Positions 1,950 through 34,975 of a DNA stretch of 44,541 nt are shown here, in pieces. This DNA is from Candidatus Gastranaerophilales bacterium (GTDB lineage: Bacteria > Cyanobacteriota > Vampirovibrionia > Gastranaerophilales > Gastranaerophilaceae). Both the position numbers and the translations under genes were made by a program. The first letter of the stretch is position 1, and the number at the start of each line of letters is the position of its first letter. The stretch covers positions 1-44,541 of the forward strand of contig CANRHZ010000012.1 in NCBI GenBank assembly GCA_947630535.1. Direction: 5' to 3'. The notes under the pieces are model-generated. The model was not told where the DNA came from and searched no databases. It worked only from the letters and a program-made list of their open reading frames with translations.

Positions 1950-2990
1950 ATGCTCAATGTTTGCACAAATTATGCAAAATATACCCCAAAAATAATTGCT
2001 TTTAAGGGAAGCAGCAAAATCAGTGCGCTTAATAATAATCCTAAAACAGAAGCATGCGCAATTTCTCAATCCTACCCGATTTCATATGAATTATACTCAA
2101 ACCGATTGAATACCCGAAGAAAAATTCTTGAAAATTTCAGACCTAATCTGCTTTCAAATACTAAAATAGATTACAGAAAATGGCTTGAACAGTTTGAAAC
2201 AAACGAGGAAAAATATCTTGCAGTGAGGATGCTTGAAAATTACTTTTACATAGATACGGATAACGCAAGATGTGCATTCAGAAAGCTTTATCTTGATTTA
2301 TCAGAAGAAACGGATATCTCAAAAACCAATTTTGCAACTTTCGGAACGGCAAAAAGCGGTTCTTATATGGGATATTTATTCAGACAAGCAAACAAGTTAC
2401 GCTCAAAAGGTACGGTTAGCCATGAATATAGCCCCAAAGACAAAATCCAAAAAGACAAATTTATTACATCTGACCAATTAGGAGATGTTGAATTTAATAA
2501 AGAACAAAAGAAAAAAGGCATGGAAAATATTGCTATTATTGACGATATTATAGGAGATGGCGACTCCTTTATCGAATATTTAACTCCCGAGATTTATAAT
2601 TCACTAAAACAGTATAAAAATGTTTATTACCTGACTTTAGTAAAAGATCCCGACGGTGAAAAAAGGGTAAAAGAAAGATTTCCCGACTTGAACATTAAAT
2701 TTAGAACGGCTCAGGAAGTTTATAAATACGATTCAAAAGAAAACAAAAATTTTAGCGACTACGAAAAAGCAAAAATTGACTATATGTTAAAAAAATACGG
2801 CGAGAAAATCAACCCTTCTCTTGTAGAGAAATATTCACGTTCAAAACTTTTTGTTTCTTTTGATTGGAATACTCCGGGTAACTCCCCTATGATATTTAAC
2901 GTAACAAATTCAAATTGGAATGGGCTTTTTCAAAGATATAACGGGCTTGAAGAAGGGGATGTCGGAGCAAAGTTTAATTTCTTGGGATAA
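1950..2990 (+). CDS. Phosphoribosyltransferase-like protein (PRTase-CE-like)
   Basis: A 346-residue protein. A PRPP-binding-like loop IAIIDDIIGDGDSF is at residues 194-207. An upstream GTAKSGSYMGYLFR segment lies near 132-145. The C-terminal segment FDWNTPGNSP...WNGLFQRY near 308-330 resembles the closing motif (TPNN...W..LFpR) of the PRTase-CE family described by Aravind and colleagues in biological-conflict systems. The helical region WLEQF...LAVRMLENY also fits that family. The N-terminus contains a stray IIAFKGSSK motif, shared in type with the neighbouring kinase-like protein. It ends 6 bases from the convergent kinase-like gene. The enzymatic role is not known and the family call is from motif resemblance only. 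Confidence 0.55.
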   Translation: MLNVCTNYAKYTPKIIAFKGSSKISALNNNPKTEACAISQSYPISYELYSNRLNTRRKILENFRPNLLSNTKIDYRKWLEQFETNEEKYLAVRMLENYFYIDTDNARCAFRKLYLDLSEETDISKTNFATFGTAKSGSYMGYLFRQANKLRSKGTVSHEYSPKDKIQKDKFITSDQLGDVEFNKEQKKKGMENIAIIDDIIGDGDSFIEYLTPEIYNSLKQYKNVYYLTLVKDPDGEKRVKERFPDLNIKFRTAQEVYKYDSKENKNFSDYEKAKIDYMLKKYGEKINPSLVEKYSRSKLFVSFDWNTPGNSPMIFNVTNSNWNGLFQRYNGLEEGDVGAKFNFLG

Positions 2991-2996
2991 ATCTTT

Positions 2997-4364
2997 TTAA
3001 TTAAAAAGTTCTCTATACTTTTCTTTTTCCGTTTCACTAAAAGTATCAATTACCTCTTTTGGACAGGGCTCAAATTTTGCTCCTAAGGCTATAAGGTATT
3101 CAATATCTTCCTTTTTAAATTTTGAAACGTAATCTGATGTCTGATACCTTGTAAACTCTTTGGTGGCTTCACTGTTATTTTGGCTTGGAATTCTATTCAT
3201 AAAGAAAAAATCGTTTATAAAGGTTAAAAATTCTTCTTTATCTTTATTTTTTTCTCTAAACTTTTTAACTTCATCAATTTTCCTTTTTTCAATTAAAGGG
3301 AATAAAAGTCTTGCATATTTTGCATCAGACCTGTTTTTAAATCTGTAACTAATTCCACCGTAATCTACAATTTTTTTCCCGAGTTTATTTCCTTTTGTAA
3401 TAACATCGGGGTTTATTACGTATTGTGTATTCCAAGGGTTGTTTGAATATATTTTTTCGTATTCTTCTATATCCGCTTTTAAATCGTAAGTGTCCTCATC
3501 TTCGCATAAGCCTGTTAACATATACCCTTTGTCAAAATCGGCGCAATAAAACCTTGAACACTTATCTTGTGGCAAGATTTCATTTAAATAAATTGCATTT
3601 ACGGATTCTGATATAATTCCGTTTTTAGATAACGCATTATAATAACCTCCGTTATTTTTTGGCACCTTCAGGACAAATTTTTCTTTGCCGCATTCAATTT
3701 TAAAAGTTATTCCAAAAGAACCTTCATATATATAACTTAATTTACATTTCTTTTTTGTATTTTCGGATAACTTTTCTTGAAGCCATTTTGTTAAATGTTT
3801 ATAATCGGCATTATAGTTTTTTTTGTATTCTTCTCTGACTTGTTCGCTGAATTTGCCTAAATCGTCGCATATATTTTTTGTTAATTCCCCTCTTTTGTTT
3901 TTGTCTTTTGAATCAATAAAAACTAAGGGCAGGGACCCTATCGCTCCATAATTTGTATAATGTCTTAAAACTTTATCTACAAGCATGTTTCCATCTAATG
4001 TATTTTTTTTAAAAAAATGGTACGGTTTTTTGGAAAAACTGTTTTCTTCTTCACCGTTTGTATAATTTATGTAGCCTTCTCTTGTATAAGCATATTTCTT
4101 TTTCGCCCTTCTGCCTGATGAAAGGTCAATTGTTCCGTATTCTTCCAGATTAGAAAGGTATGAAACCGCCTTATAGAAAAGACTTTTATCGCACACTGGC
4201 TCATAATTTTCACTGTCCCATCCGTCAATTTTGCCGTCACCATCAACAAAATAACTTTTTGCATAATTTATTTTGTCTTTATCTTTTATGCTTTTTTCAT
4301 CCGTGATAATTGTGCCGCTTTTAAAAGAAGGTTTAATATAAGAATTTATTTTGTATATTTTCAT
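2997..4364 (-). CDS. Kinase-like protein with EF-hand-like loop
   Basis: A 455-residue protein. Residues 211-236 look like a protein-kinase glycine loop plus the VAIK lysine (YIYEGSFGITFKI, then FVLKVPK with Lys233). Residues 331-337 (KIVDYGG) resemble the DFG magnesium loop. The usual HRD/HGD catalytic aspartate loop is not evident in the NPWNTQYVIN stretch before it, so it may be a divergent kinase or a pseudokinase. Residues 41-50 (DGDGKIDGWD) match positions 3-12 of an EF-hand or dockerin calcium loop, lacking the first acidic residue. The extreme N-terminus has IKPSFKSG, like the neighbour's IIAFKGSS. No signal peptide is evident. TATAAT lies 6 bases before the ATG, with AAGGA 13 bases before it. 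Confidence 0.5.
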   Translation of the reverse strand: MKIYKINSYIKPSFKSGTIITDEKSIKDKDKINYAKSYFVDGDGKIDGWDSENYEPVCDKSLFYKAVSYLSNLEEYGTIDLSSGRRAKKKYAYTREGYINYTNGEEENSFSKKPYHFFKKNTLDGNMLVDKVLRHYTNYGAIGSLPLVFIDSKDKNKRGELTKNICDDLGKFSEQVREEYKKNYNADYKHLTKWLQEKLSENTKKKCKLSYIYEGSFGITFKIECGKEKFVLKVPKNNGGYYNALSKNGIISESVNAIYLNEILPQDKCSRFYCADFDKGYMLTGLCEDEDTYDLKADIEEYEKIYSNNPWNTQYVINPDVITKGNKLGKKIVDYGGISYRFKNRSDAKYARLLFPLIEKRKIDEVKKFREKNKDKEEFLTFINDFFFMNRIPSQNNSEATKEFTRYQTSDYVSKFKKEDIEYLIALGAKFEPCPKEVIDTFSETEKEKYRELFN

Positions 4365-6526: not shown

Positions 6527-9500
6527 TTTTTTCTTCCTTTAAAAGATTAAAGCAATATGAAGGCTCTTGTTTTGTAATTTTATTAAAAATTTTATATTCA
6601 TCTGAAGTTGTAAGGTAAAGTTTCTTTTTTGCTCTTGTAATTCCGACATATAAAAGCCTTAAGTTTTCATCTATAATTTCTTGCTTTATCTCATCTTCGG
6701 TTTTTTTAGAGCCTTTTATTGAGTTTATTATTTTTGTGCCTTCATTTATTTTAATGCTTGATGGTATTAAGCTTAAATTTTTATCTGTAAGACGGGGAAT
6801 AAATACATAATCAAATTCATCCCCCTTTGATTTATGTATTGTCATTATCTTAACTACATTTTGACCTGTTTCTTTTTTATTATCTTCAAAAAGTTTTATG
6901 TTTCCCCCTCCCTTTTTTATGAGTTCGTTTAATTTAATTAAGGTATCTTCAAAGTTCCCTTCGCTTTTATAAACCTTTGAAATTAAAGAGGAAACGGGAG
7001 CAATATTTATTCTTTTTTTAGGGTTATTTATAAAATAGTATTCGCCGATTTTAAATCCGAGAACGTCCGCCCTTAAAGTACAAAGCCCGAGAAAATATCT
7101 TAAATCCCACCAGAGAGGATAGTTTTCATAATTTTCAAGAATAAAAGGTTTTTTAATATTTTTTATTTCATCAAAAAGCTCAACATCCGATAAATAAAAG
7201 CCGTTATCTGTCATATTGTTAAGAAAATCTATGATAAGACTGTTATTAAGAGGGTTTGATATAAAATTAAAGACGCAAAGAACCGTTTTAAATACGGGGT
7301 TGTTTGATAAAAGAGAGGTGTTGGATATTATTTTATGGTTTGTGTTTGATTTTAAATAAGATATGTAATCATCCGCCTCTTTATTTGTTCTTGTTAAAAT
7401 TCCTATATCGGACGATTTTTCATAAGAAAAAATCTCATTTATTTTATTTAAAATAAATTTTTTTTCTTCTTCCTCTTTATTAAAAAACTTGAATTCAAAA
7501 GCGTTTTTATTCACAATGTTTTTGCCTTCAACGGGCTTTGTTTCTATTATGCTAAATGCGTCTTTTGAATAGTTAGAGCCCTTTTTAATAAGAATATTTG
7601 CAAGGTCAATAATTCCCGTTGCATTTCTTAAGGTATAGTTCATTTTGCAATTCGGGTTATTTTCTATAAATTTTCTAAACCCTTTTATATCTGAATTTGT
7701 AAAAGTTGAGGTGATTGCTTGATTAATGTCACCCGAGCGGATTATGTTCCCGTATTTCTTTGCAATTATATTAATAATTTCCTGCTGAATTGAGCTTGAA
7801 TCTTGCGCTTCATCTTCAATTACATAGTGTGCCAAATTTTGATAATATTCTCTTATCTTTACATTAGAACATAAAAGTTCGTATGCCAGCCCCAAGAGAT
7901 CGTCATAATCAATCAAATTAAGACTTTTTAGAGTTTTTTGGTATTTTTCATAAATCCTTTTAAAAACGGGACTATAAGAATTTGTGTATTTATTTTTTGA
8001 ATTTTTATAAGAAGATATTGCCCTTTCATAAATGCTTGTTTTGGATGTGTCCATCCCTTCCGTGTAAACAATTTCATTTATTATTTTGAGCCTTTTTATT
8101 TCATCCGTTATATCAAAATCAGAATCCAACCCCAAATTTATAAAGTTGTCATTTTCCCTTAAAATTCTTAAACACAACCCGTGGATTGTTGAGATATTCG
8201 GGGTTTCTTTTATGTTCGGAATTATAAGTTTTATTCTTTCCTTAAAAGTTCTTGCGGCAGAATCCATATAGGTTAAAACAAAGATGTTTTCGGGTTTTAT
8301 ACCATCTTCAAGAAGTTTTACTATAAGAGCAAGCATTATTGTTGTTTTTCCTGCTCCTGCAACCGCCATAACGGCAAATTTGCCCTTTTTGTACTCTAAA
8401 ACGGGCATCTGGTCTTTTCTTGGAACAATATTAAATTTTGGTTTTATTTGAGTTTCTTTTTTTTCAAAGAAATGTTTTATTCCTTGAAAATTTTCATTCC
8501 CGATAAAGTTGTAGTCGGATGAATACATATAAATTTCACCCTTTGATAACAAAAATATTTTTCTTAGCATTCTTGCCGTTTTATCAAGGGTGCAATATAT
8601 ATTGTCCTCAAGTTCAAAACTGTTTTTTTTCCAGTTTTTTTGAAAAATCCATGCATTATATAAGGGGCCCACATCTTGTTTTACCCAGTTAGAATTTGTT
8701 GCATCATATATAAAAAGATGCTTATTTTCAATTTTTAAATCTATGGCCTTTTGAAGGGTTGATATATTAATACATTTTGGCTTTAATTTGTTATGTTCAA
8801 GCGGATTTTCAGATATAATAGTGTTTTCAAGTCCATATAAAAGCTCTTTATTTGAATATACGTCTTTAAAAATATTTTCAAAATCCCTTATCTGTTTTAA
8901 AAGCTGATTAATTTTTTGTATGGCTTCTTTATTTTCTTCTTTCTTTTCAATAAAAAGGGATGAGATTGAATACAAAATTTCGCTCAATTTTTTGTCTTTT
9001 AATTTGGTTTTTATTTCAATTAACTTTTCAATCCGTTTTTCATCTTTATAATTTTCAAATATACAAAAAAGGTTTTTTTCCCCGAAAGAGGCTTCAAAAT
9101 CTTTTACTATATTAATTGAAACATTCAAGTCAACATTTAAAATTGAACCTAAAAGCCCCCTTAATTTGTATGATGAAACTTTGTAACTTTCAGGTTCAAC
9201 AATTAATTTTAAAAGCGTAATTATATGAGAAACAACAATGTTGGCTTCAATTTTTTCTGAACCCGAAATGAAATTAACGGGTGCATCTAATTTATCTGTA
9301 CAAAATTTAAAAAACTCGTTATTTTCAGGAACTATAACCAAAATATCAAAAGGGTCTACCCCTTTATTTAAAAGAGAGTTTATCTTTTCTATAAGGGCAT
9401 CCGTCATATCAATTGCCCCTATAAAACTTTTTTCTTCCATATTTTCAATACTTATTTTTTCATTATTTACGATTTTTTCAAAAATCATATCGGCTTTTTC

Positions 9501-31784: not shown

Positions 31785-33881
31785 ATGAGGATTAAATTTA
31801 TACTGCTTTTTTTATTTTTTTTATTTGTTGAAAATTATATTTTTGCACAAAATATGGAATCCCCTTCAAAATATCCCGATTTTGCCTATGAATATTTAGG
31901 ATATGACAGGTTTGAAAATTTCAATCGTAAAATGTTTTTATTAAACGGGGCAATAAATAAATACGCTATAAGGCCCATAACCGTTATATGGTCGTCTGTT
32001 ATGCCAAAATACGGAATGGATAGAATAAAATATGCATATAATAACATTTTATACCCGAGGCAGCTTGTAAGTTCAATTTGTCAGGGCGACTTTAAGGGGG
32101 CTGTCCATGCAAGCGCAAGGTTTATTGTTAATTCAACCGTAGGGCTTGGCGGAATGTTTGACCCCGCAAAAAGGTTTTTAAAGATAAACCCCGTTAATGA
32201 AGATATGGAGCAAGCTCTTGCAAAATGGAAAATAAAACAGGGGCCCTACCTTGTAGTTCCCATTCTTTCATCTTCAACCCCGAGAGGTTTAATCGGAAGG
32301 GCATTTGATGCTGCGCTTGACCCTTCATCGTATGTGGGAAGCCCCGTTATTGCGGCGGTTAAAGCAGGTTTTACGGTTAATAATTTTACTATGCTTCAGC
32401 CTTTATCCAAAGTTGTTGAAAATAACTATATTGACCCTTATGACATTACAAAAAAACTTTACGGGCTTCAGATTGCAATTTTAAATTCTAACCTTGACAG
32501 AACCGATGTATTAAACTCTCAAGATGAAATTATAAACGATACAAAAAAAGACATTATGGAAGATATTACAAAAGAGGATAGCATAATTAATGTCAGCGAC
32601 GAGATAAAAATTCAAACCGTTAAAGATTCTATTCAAATTGTTGCCCCCGAAGAAGTCATTAAGGGCGGAACCTCAACGGATGAAATTATATATGACGATA
32701 TTTTAAAACCCGATATAATTTTAAAAAATTTTAATCCCCAAAATCCCGTTATAGATTCAATGAGAACGGCACTATTTGATGTAGAAGGGGTGGATAATTC
32801 AATCTGGGGAGATATGTCCCTTTGGAACAGAAGCTTTCAAAACAGAATTAAAACTTCATCAATTTCAATTGAACCTGACAGAGAAAAGTATAAATACAGA
32901 TATATTATGCAAAAAGACAAAAATTCCCCCCTTGCAATAATATTCCCTTCGGTCGGGGAGAGCATATATTCTCATCACTCCGACTTATTTGCAAAACTCT
33001 TTTATGATGAAGGGTATTCGGTTTTAATTCAGGGAAGTGCTTTTCACTATGATTTTGTAAAGAGCATGGAAAAGTCTTTTAAACCGGGCATTCCAAAGGA
33101 AGATGTTAAACACATTAAAACGGCAACCTTAAAAATAGTAAACGAGCTTGAAAATAAATATAATTGCAAGTTTTCAAATAAAGTTGTCCTCGGAACTTCA
33201 TACGGAGCAATGTCAACCCTTTTTCTTGCCGCAAACGAATCAGATGAAAATATGCTTAATATATCAAAGTATATCTCAATAAATCCGCCGATTGAGCTTT
33301 TATATGCGCTCAATCAAATAGATGCAAACAGTGAAGAATGGATAAAAGATTCAGATAACCTTAAAGATAAAACGGCACTCACTGCTGCAAAAATTCTTCA
33401 AACGGCAAATAAGAAGGAAGAAGAAAATATAAAAATTGAAACCCTTCCTTTCAATGAAAAAGAGGCTAAATTAATAACGGGGTTTGTGCTTCATCAAAAA
33501 CTTTCCGATTTACTTTTTGCAATTGAAGAAATCCCCCCTTCAAAAAAGACGGATTTTTATGAGAGAGTAAAAAATACAAACTATAAAGATTATGCACAAA
33601 AATATTTGGTAACAAATGAAAATCCCACAATTGAAGATTTTTCAAACTCCGCAAGCCTTCATTCAATTAAAAACTATCTTCAAAATAACAGTAATTACAC
33701 AATTTACCATTCTCTTGATGATTATCTTGTTAATGAAAATCAGCTCAGACAGCTTAAAAATTATGCAAAGAAAAATATGAAGTTGATAGATAAAGGAGCG
33801 CATTTAGGATTTTTATACAGAGAAGAATTTATTGACGATCTTAAAAAAGAAATTAATTTAAAACAAAAGGCAAGATTATAA
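31785..33881 (+). CDS. MlaA (VacJ) domain fused to an alpha/beta hydrolase
   Basis: A 698-residue exported protein with a Sec signal peptide (LLFLFFLFVENYIFAQ) but no lipobox cysteine, unusual for MlaA. Residues about 32-215 are an MlaA domain: YDRFENFNRKMFLLNGAINKYAIRP, then ARFIVNSTVGLGGMFDP, NEDMEQALAKW and GPYLVVPIL. MlaA removes phospholipids from the outer leaflet of the outer membrane. From about 380 on is a hydrolase with a full apparent triad: GTSYGA (Ser472), Asp645/646 in SLDDY, and His673 in GAHLGF. An acidic linker joins them. The combination suggests lipid extraction coupled to ester hydrolysis (inference). Confidence 0.8.
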   Translation: MRIKFILLFLFFLFVENYIFAQNMESPSKYPDFAYEYLGYDRFENFNRKMFLLNGAINKYAIRPITVIWSSVMPKYGMDRIKYAYNNILYPRQLVSSICQGDFKGAVHASARFIVNSTVGLGGMFDPAKRFLKINPVNEDMEQALAKWKIKQGPYLVVPILSSSTPRGLIGRAFDAALDPSSYVGSPVIAAVKAGFTVNNFTMLQPLSKVVENNYIDPYDITKKLYGLQIAILNSNLDRTDVLNSQDEIINDTKKDIMEDITKEDSIINVSDEIKIQTVKDSIQIVAPEEVIKGGTSTDEIIYDDILKPDIILKNFNPQNPVIDSMRTALFDVEGVDNSIWGDMSLWNRSFQNRIKTSSISIEPDREKYKYRYIMQKDKNSPLAIIFPSVGESIYSHHSDLFAKLFYDEGYSVLIQGSAFHYDFVKSMEKSFKPGIPKEDVKHIKTATLKIVNELENKYNCKFSNKVVLGTSYGAMSTLFLAANESDENMLNISKYISINPPIELLYALNQIDANSEEWIKDSDNLKDKTALTAAKILQTANKKEEENIKIETLPFNEKEAKLITGFVLHQKLSDLLFAIEEIPPSKKTDFYERVKNTNYKDYAQKYLVTNENPTIEDFSNSASLHSIKNYLQNNSNYTIYHSLDDYLVNENQLRQLKNYAKKNMKLIDKGAHLGFLYREEFIDDLKKEINLKQKARL

Positions 33882-33943: not shown

Positions 33944-34975
33944 ATGAATAAGAAAATAATTTTGTCTTTGCTTTTTTTATTTTTATTTTTTCTTTTAAAC
34001 CCTTGTGTATCCTTTGCAAAAAAACCCGTCTTGCCCCCAAAAGCAGCGGTTTTTGTGCCTGTTAATAATATAGAAGAAAACAGAATATGGATAGGAACCT
34101 TTCAATTGGTTTGGAACGACTTAGCAAATGAAATTGTAAAAGGGGATATTCATTTTACGGGGGTAAAATCCGACCTTGCAGACAAACTAAACAAGCAAGG
34201 CTTTAATTCATCAATGTTATCATCAAATTCTTATTATAAAACTTACGGCAAAATTTCAAACAGATTAAAGTGGAAAATTGAAAGGGGAATTTGGCTGAAA
34301 TTCAGAGAAAAAAGCGACATTATAAATAACATTAACTGGGAGCAAGACGGCCTTTTAGTTTATGCAATGCTAAAAAAAGACTTTAAGTTTTTAAAAGAAT
34401 TTTGTGAACTTGATAAGGGTAAATTTTTAGATAGTGAAGTTAAATTCTTTGGCATAAGGAACAATACCGAAGATAAAGACTTATTAAATAACCTTGAAAT
34501 TATGTTTTATGAAAACAAAGATTCCTATGCCGTTAAAATATTTACAAAAGAAGGAGATGAACTTCTTTTATACAGAACGGATGACGAACTTGAACTTGAA
34601 GAATACTATAAAAATTTGAATACAAAATATGCAAACTATAATGGAACAAGAAAGTTTAGCAAAGATGATGTTCTTAAAATCCCCTATATTAAATTTGAAG
34701 ATATGTTTGAATATAAGGAATTATCCAATAAACCGATTGAAGGCACTGATTACGTTATAGACGGCGCCATTCAAACGGTTAAAATAAATATTAACAACAA
34801 AGGGGGCACTCTAAAAAGTGAAGCTGCGCTTATTATGAAAATGAGCCTGCCAAACCCTCAAATTACTCATAACTTTTATTACGATAAACCCTTCATTCTT
34901 TTCATCAAAGAGAAAAATAAGGAATTGCCCTATTTTATAGCTCACTTTAAAAATGCGGCACTGTTTGAAAAATAG
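33944..34975 (+). CDS. Exported protein, possibly a divergent serpin
   Basis: A 343-residue protein with a Sec signal peptide (ILSLLFLFLFFLLNPCVSFA). Several segments recall serpins: GTFQLVWNDLANEI near the start, LLVYAMLKKDFKFLKEF in the middle, IQTVKININNKGGTLKSEA like the serpin hinge, and YYDKPFILFIKEKNKELPYFIAHF like the C-terminal strand that follows the reactive loop. Canonical serpins are about 370-400 residues; the reactive loop here (ALIMKMSLPNPQITH) lacks the run of small residues and may not be inhibitory. If not a serpin, the function is unknown. AAGGA precedes the ATG and a two-way terminator follows. Confidence 0.45.
   Translation: MNKKIILSLLFLFLFFLLNPCVSFAKKPVLPPKAAVFVPVNNIEENRIWIGTFQLVWNDLANEIVKGDIHFTGVKSDLADKLNKQGFNSSMLSSNSYYKTYGKISNRLKWKIERGIWLKFREKSDIINNINWEQDGLLVYAMLKKDFKFLKEFCELDKGKFLDSEVKFFGIRNNTEDKDLLNNLEIMFYENKDSYAVKIFTKEGDELLLYRTDDELELEEYYKNLNTKYANYNGTRKFSKDDVLKIPYIKFEDMFEYKELSNKPIEGTDYVIDGAIQTVKININNKGGTLKSEAALIMKMSLPNPQITHNFYYDKPFILFIKEKNKELPYFIAHFKNAALFEK

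Follow-up and report, generated by a model that had tools for sequence, protein, structure and literature searches.

A predicted single-chain counterpart of the MlaZ-MlaY pair in Gastranaerophilales, combining an MlaA-family domain and an alpha/beta hydrolase

The window, i.e. the whole stretch of 44,541 nucleotides analysed here (Candidatus Gastranaerophilales bacterium, contig CANRHZ010000012.1), contains a gene in which an MlaA-family domain is fused to an alpha/beta hydrolase with an intact catalytic triad. We think it likely that the product is a one-chain version of the MlaZ-MlaY pair of Pseudomonas aeruginosa, extracting misplaced phospholipid and then hydrolysing it, where we infer the location, the channel activity, the substrate and the direction. 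This reading follows from the fusion itself, the fold, the triad, the homology to MlaY, the lineage, the co-occurrence of MlaD, MlaE and LpxC, and the lack of detectable MlaC, LolA and PldA. That the fusion works like MlaZ-MlaY is well supported. The initial annotation had pictured a lipid extractor and a lipase or esterase in one chain as a route of outer-membrane lipid turnover; as a prediction this idea is supported, and it matches the published P. aeruginosa pair.

The two-protein MlaZ-MlaY system is known. What is new is the single chain, the lineage in which it is found and its lipobox-free form where Lol is missing. The literature searched, which did not extend to Guest et al. 2023 itself, contained no mention of a single chain, of such a chain in Cyanobacteriota, or of MlaA-type proteins in diderm Terrabacteria.

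Domain layout, fold and signal peptide

The open reading frame is intact and begins with ATG (Table 1). Its N-terminal part matches the MlaA family of Pfam (PF04333) at 7.5e-46, with 156.7 bits vs a cut-off of 25. The C-terminal half is matched weakly by Abhydrolase_1 (2e-4, under the cut-off of that family), and searches of Pfam, NCBIfam and PDB sequences with the hydrolase part gave no informative match naming an enzyme or a substrate.

Table 1. Coordinates of the fusion gene, its parts and other genes in the window
Feature	Position	Strand	Basis or remark
Whole gene (698 aa), encoding an MlaA (MlaZ-like) domain, a linker and an MlaY-like alpha/beta hydrolase	31785..33881	+	
Signal peptide, residues 1-21 (...NYIFA|Q), no lipobox cysteine	31785..31847	+	signal-peptidase-I type and cleavage site inferred by eye
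MlaA domain (PF04333), residues 40-226	31902..32462	+	Pfam; fold match 5nuo, 8i8r
Linker, residues 254-304	32544..32696	+	pLDDT <50; past the position at which E. coli MlaA has its MlaC-binding tail
MlaY-like alpha/beta-hydrolase domain, residues 305-698	32697..33878	+	profile and models
Ser472, nucleophile (G-T-S-[FY]-G), equivalent to MlaY S187	33198..33200	+	alignment; between strand and helix in the model
Mostly helical insertion, residues about 500-637, possible lid	33282..33695	+	modelled secondary structure; flanked by the strand that follows the Ser helix and the strand that precedes Asp
Asp646, acid, equivalent to MlaY D388	33720..33722	+	alignment
His673 (G-x-H-L-G), equivalent to MlaY H415	33801..33803	+	alignment
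Secreted-looking protein, directly downstream of the fusion	33944..34975	+	weak Serpin match (87 residues, 2e-7)
PRTase-CE domain protein	1950..2990	+	PF24390, 1.4e-30
455-aa product, adjoining the PRTase-CE gene	2997..4364	-	no Pfam match

The AlphaFold2 model of the full protein, built on an alignment of 49 rows, has a pLDDT of 85.6 and a pTM of 0.84, and the linker is its low-confidence region. The N-terminal part resembles the solved MlaA chains 5nuo, 5nur and 8i8r (Foldseek, TM-score on target 0.70-0.82), and the core residues of MlaA are conserved in it. The C-terminal part resembles esterases (Foldseek), among them the Pf2001 esterase with a Z-score of 20.6 in a second aligner. When this part was modelled alone, the pLDDT was 88.3 and the pTM 0.90, and the model matched Pf2001 with a Z-score of 19.8 (3.3 A over 243 residues), i.e. 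the alpha/beta-hydrolase fold expected for this half is present in the structure prediction. In the model the serine sits at a nucleophile elbow between a strand and a helix, Asp and His each follow directly after a strand, and the helical-rich insertion comprises about 135 residues. As modelled, the placement of the triad and the insertion is canonical for the alpha/beta-hydrolase fold.

S472 is invariant in the 53 aligned homologous ORFs, and D646 and H673 are the same in all 52 rows that cover them (the remaining row has no letter at these sites). The initial annotation had left the acid open between Asp645 and Asp646. Since D645 varies (it is kept in 46/52 homologues) and D646 does not, the catalytic acid is D646 and D645 is ruled out; the other two proposed triad residues stand. 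In other words, the fusion of MlaA to a hydrolase with an intact triad is confirmed by the Pfam match, the conserved residues and the model.

The lack of a lipobox is equally clear. The annotated ATG is the first start codon that follows the upstream stop, and the translation is free of cysteine up to about residue 99, so that no corrected start can provide a lipobox. A strict lipobox is also missing in 51 of the 52 homologues that have an N-terminus, the exception (L019) having a Cys within the hydrophobic stretch, just ahead of an ordinary cleavage motif. The absence itself was thus predicted correctly, but it is not a trait unique to this protein: P. aeruginosa MlaZ and an MlaA of Variovorax are likewise without a lipobox, and the MlaA family is therefore not defined by one.

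Distribution in Gastranaerophilales

The relatives matching the protein are titled Candidatus Gastranaerophilales or Melainabacteria. These are gut bacteria, related to cyanobacteria but not photosynthetic. In profile searches of 386 genomes from the phylum Cyanobacteriota, MlaA was found in 92, all of them in two families of Gastranaerophilales, and the hydrolase profile picked out the identical set of 92; neither part occurred alone in any of the 386 genomes. Wherever both parts lie on one contig they are fused, and in 91 of the 92 genomes they form a single frame of 650-827 aa. In the remaining genome (G294) the frame is short, and the missing half lies on another contig. We note that two neighbouring genes could in principle have been merged by a faulty gene model or assembly, and the only point in favour of this is that the two genes adjoin in other phyla. 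With one open frame in nearly every genome and the last copy split over two contigs, an artefact has a negligible probability and we consider it ruled out. Chance is excluded as well, because the fusion is conserved lineage-wide.

The question whether the fusion is lineage-wide has a divided answer, since it is limited to two families of the order and, within one of these, is patchy. In the genus of the window the gene is present in four genomes (G000, G004, G005 and G007) and absent from five others, and the fusion is dispensable in the lineage, as some family members do without it. One genome lacking the fusion (G002) still has the neighbouring GDH and serpin-like genes. One copy (L018, genome G029) has a stop codon within the matched span of the genome search, and several other copies have one stop inside the profile match.

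No fused copy was found in phage and plasmid collections, and a phage or plasmid origin is unsupported. Neither is there a conserved operon partner: the neighbours vary among the loci, and the idea of an operon partner was dropped for this reason. RND exporter genes and a pair of 4'-phosphopantetheinyl-transferase-like and serpin-like genes recur near some copies, but not most. In three loci (L030, L031, L057) the fusion is immediately followed by genes for an RND exporter adaptor and permease, which are also nearby in four more Gastranaerophilales loci. The transferase-like gene, named by eye, lies between the fusion and the serpin-like gene in G005 and G004.

MlaZ-MlaY counterparts in other phyla

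According to later papers, MlaZ and MlaY of P. aeruginosa are PA3239 and PA3238 (Guest et al. 2023 PNAS, via PMC11131202, PMC12569750, PMC11977310). MlaZ is proposed there to take misplaced outer-leaflet phospholipid and to hand it to the lipase MlaY (PMC11131202, PMC12569750, PMC10474453, PMC10925693), and phenotypes of MlaYZ mutants and of co-overexpression are reported (PMC11131202, PMC12569750, PMC11977310). The triad of MlaY, given as S187/D388/H415 in PMC11977310, aligns column by column with S472/D646/H673.

A tblastn search of plasmid records gave loci of P. aeruginosa and Fusobacterium in which both halves of the fusion have a match. In the P. aeruginosa locus (L103) a hydrolase gene at 7812-9173 is followed 3 bases on by an MlaA-family gene, with minCDE close by; by its sequence and the papers this gene pair is PA3238 (MlaY) and PA3239 (MlaZ). 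The homologous genes overlap in Fusobacterium vincentii, and in two Skermanella they are adjacent with tamB next. In both Skermanella loci (L115, L116) an RND adaptor and permease lie just upstream of the mlaY-mlaZ-tamB run. On the P. aeruginosa plasmid pPALO11 (L104) the mlaY copy is frameshifted and unannotated while mlaZ is intact, and an mlaA-like gene that is probably host DNA occurs in OQ658365.1 (L127), an entry deposited as Pseudomonas phage.

A profile made solely from the fused hydrolase domains was run on a tested set of ORFs. It matched the MlaY genes of the Pseudomonas, Fusobacterium and Skermanella loci (2e-27, 3e-27, 2.5e-16 and 3.4e-16) and nothing else in that set; the hydrolases it passed over include the BioG-like one of the window itself. 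On these sequence comparisons the fused hydrolase is a specific relative of P. aeruginosa MlaY and the kinship is well supported, at a sequence identity of only about 20%. In the tree of MlaA domains, the Gastranaerophilales domain lies on a long branch that joins the clade of paired MlaZ proteins at a support of 43/42 only. The tree does not reject other placements, and one beside E. coli-type MlaA is compatible with it (p-AU 0.41); the fused MlaA domain may or may not descend from MlaZ.

The two systems have several features in common: both couple an MlaA-family protein to an alpha/beta hydrolase, the hydrolases are homologous and have the same triad, and the P. aeruginosa pathway is also proposed not to need MlaC. 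There are also differences. There is one chain here and two proteins there, and the domain order is Z-Y whereas the gene order is Y-Z. The two-gene systems have a lipobox-like site on at least one partner (MlaZ in Fusobacterium, both proteins in Skermanella), and P. aeruginosa MlaY has been described as a lipoprotein (PMC10474453), whereas neither part of the fusion has a lipid anchor. Moreover, the host of the fusion belongs to a very distant lineage without detectable MlaC or LolA.

A rather different reading is that the MlaA domain merely anchors the protein in the outer membrane and that the hydrolase has other periplasmic or gut esters as its targets, such as lysophospholipids, diet or host lipids, or acylated sugars. 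The structural neighbours of the hydrolase are indeed generic (feruloyl, acetyl and other esterases, thioesterases, peptidases), and no Pfam, NCBIfam or PDB sequence family fixes its substrate. However, the specific relation to MlaY, the conserved MlaA core residues and the strict co-occurrence of both parts in 92 genomes make it unlikely that the MlaA domain is only an anchor.

Alpha/beta hydrolases with a Ser-His-Asp triad include acyltransferases. This, together with the presence of LPS synthesis (LpxC), leaves room for the suggestion that the enzyme transfers an acyl chain of the extracted phospholipid to a different acceptor, i.e. LPS, a lipoprotein or a polymer. MlaY, the relative that has been characterised, is described as a lipase, though, and we regard acyl transfer as a very remote prospect.

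Envelope genes and the proposed role

Genes of the Mla, Lpx, Lol and PldA groups were searched by profile in 58 relatives, and each search matched its E. coli control. MlaD and MlaE were found in 58/58, with or without the fusion, and the LPS enzyme LpxC likewise in 58/58. MlaC and LolA were found in none of the 58, although strongly diverged forms of either could escape a profile search. In other words, of the separate mlaB-F genes that had been proposed for checking, mlaD and mlaE are there in every relative and mlaC is not. MlaC was also not found in a chromosome-sized Fusobacterium record with mlaYZ. The absence of LolA fits a protein in which neither half appears, from its sequence, to have a lipobox.

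Compared with the canonical E. coli MlaABCDEF system, the fusion shares the MlaA fold and core residues, and its genome has MlaD and MlaE. The fusion differs in lacking the lipobox and in what follows the MlaA domain. In E. coli MlaA a C-terminal tail (residues 227-251) binds MlaC (PMC10245069); P. aeruginosa and Fusobacterium MlaZ stop short of this tail, whereas the Gastranaerophilales chain continues there into the linker and the enzyme. The proposed job, destroying misplaced outer-leaflet phospholipid, is that of PldA (OMPLA). PldA is, however, a beta-barrel with a Ser-His-Asn triad, and no homologue of it (PF02253) was found by profile search in the genome of the window or in any of the 58.

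In the genome of the window, contig 7 (L136:1634-5620) carries mlaE, mlaF and mlaD in a row, the MlaD being 453 aa long, and then an lpxK-like gene (mlaF and lpxK were named by eye). This resembles the MlaEFD with long MlaD of diderm Terrabacteria such as Veillonella, which was described without any MlaA, whereas an MlaA-type protein coexists with it here; the long MlaD has been proposed to bridge the envelope (PMC10665443). One could thus imagine that the fusion passes extracted phospholipid to MlaEFD through the long MlaD, with the hydrolase in an accessory or regulatory role. We find this improbable: MlaD and MlaE are present irrespective of the fusion and hence work without it, and the invariant triad suits catalysis.

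We favour the reading as a single-chain MlaZ-MlaY, in which the protein would be exported by its ordinary signal peptide and the MlaA/MlaZ-type domain would be located in the outer membrane. The central channel of E. coli MlaA passes phospholipid, and by analogy the channel of this domain may take up phospholipid misplaced in the LPS leaflet. At the site of the MlaC-recruiting tail of E. coli, the chain would run via the linker of about 50 residues into the Ser-Asp-His hydrolase, which, being tethered, would cleave the acyl esters of the phospholipid on the periplasmic side. The fusion would hold extractor and enzyme together so that a shuttle is unneeded, and, in bacteria that have no detectable LolA, it would spare the enzyme the need for a lipid anchor to stay at the membrane. 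Whether this amounts to a self-contained disposal of outer-leaflet phospholipid without MlaC, Lol and PldA, with the covalent tether replacing both shuttle and lipid anchor, is a further step to which we give even chances. If true, an MlaA-type extractor can function without Lol, contrary to the proposed linkage.

A 2023 survey reported that MlaABC is totally absent from diderm Terrabacteria and that MlaA is tied to the Lol pathway (PMC10665443). The MlaA-type protein in Cyanobacteriota is an exception to the former, and its lipobox-free form in genomes without detectable LolA speaks against the latter; it also suggests how MlaA could persist where lipoprotein sorting is missing. The direct transfer of lipid from MlaZ to MlaY in Pseudomonas is a proposal, and it gains independent support from a natural covalent fusion of the two parts that is kept across dozens of species. 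The fusion moreover offers a 1:1 complex ready for structural work.

Besides the run on contig 7, the genome of the window has another MlaD, of 236 aa, on contig 11 and another MlaE on contig 53.
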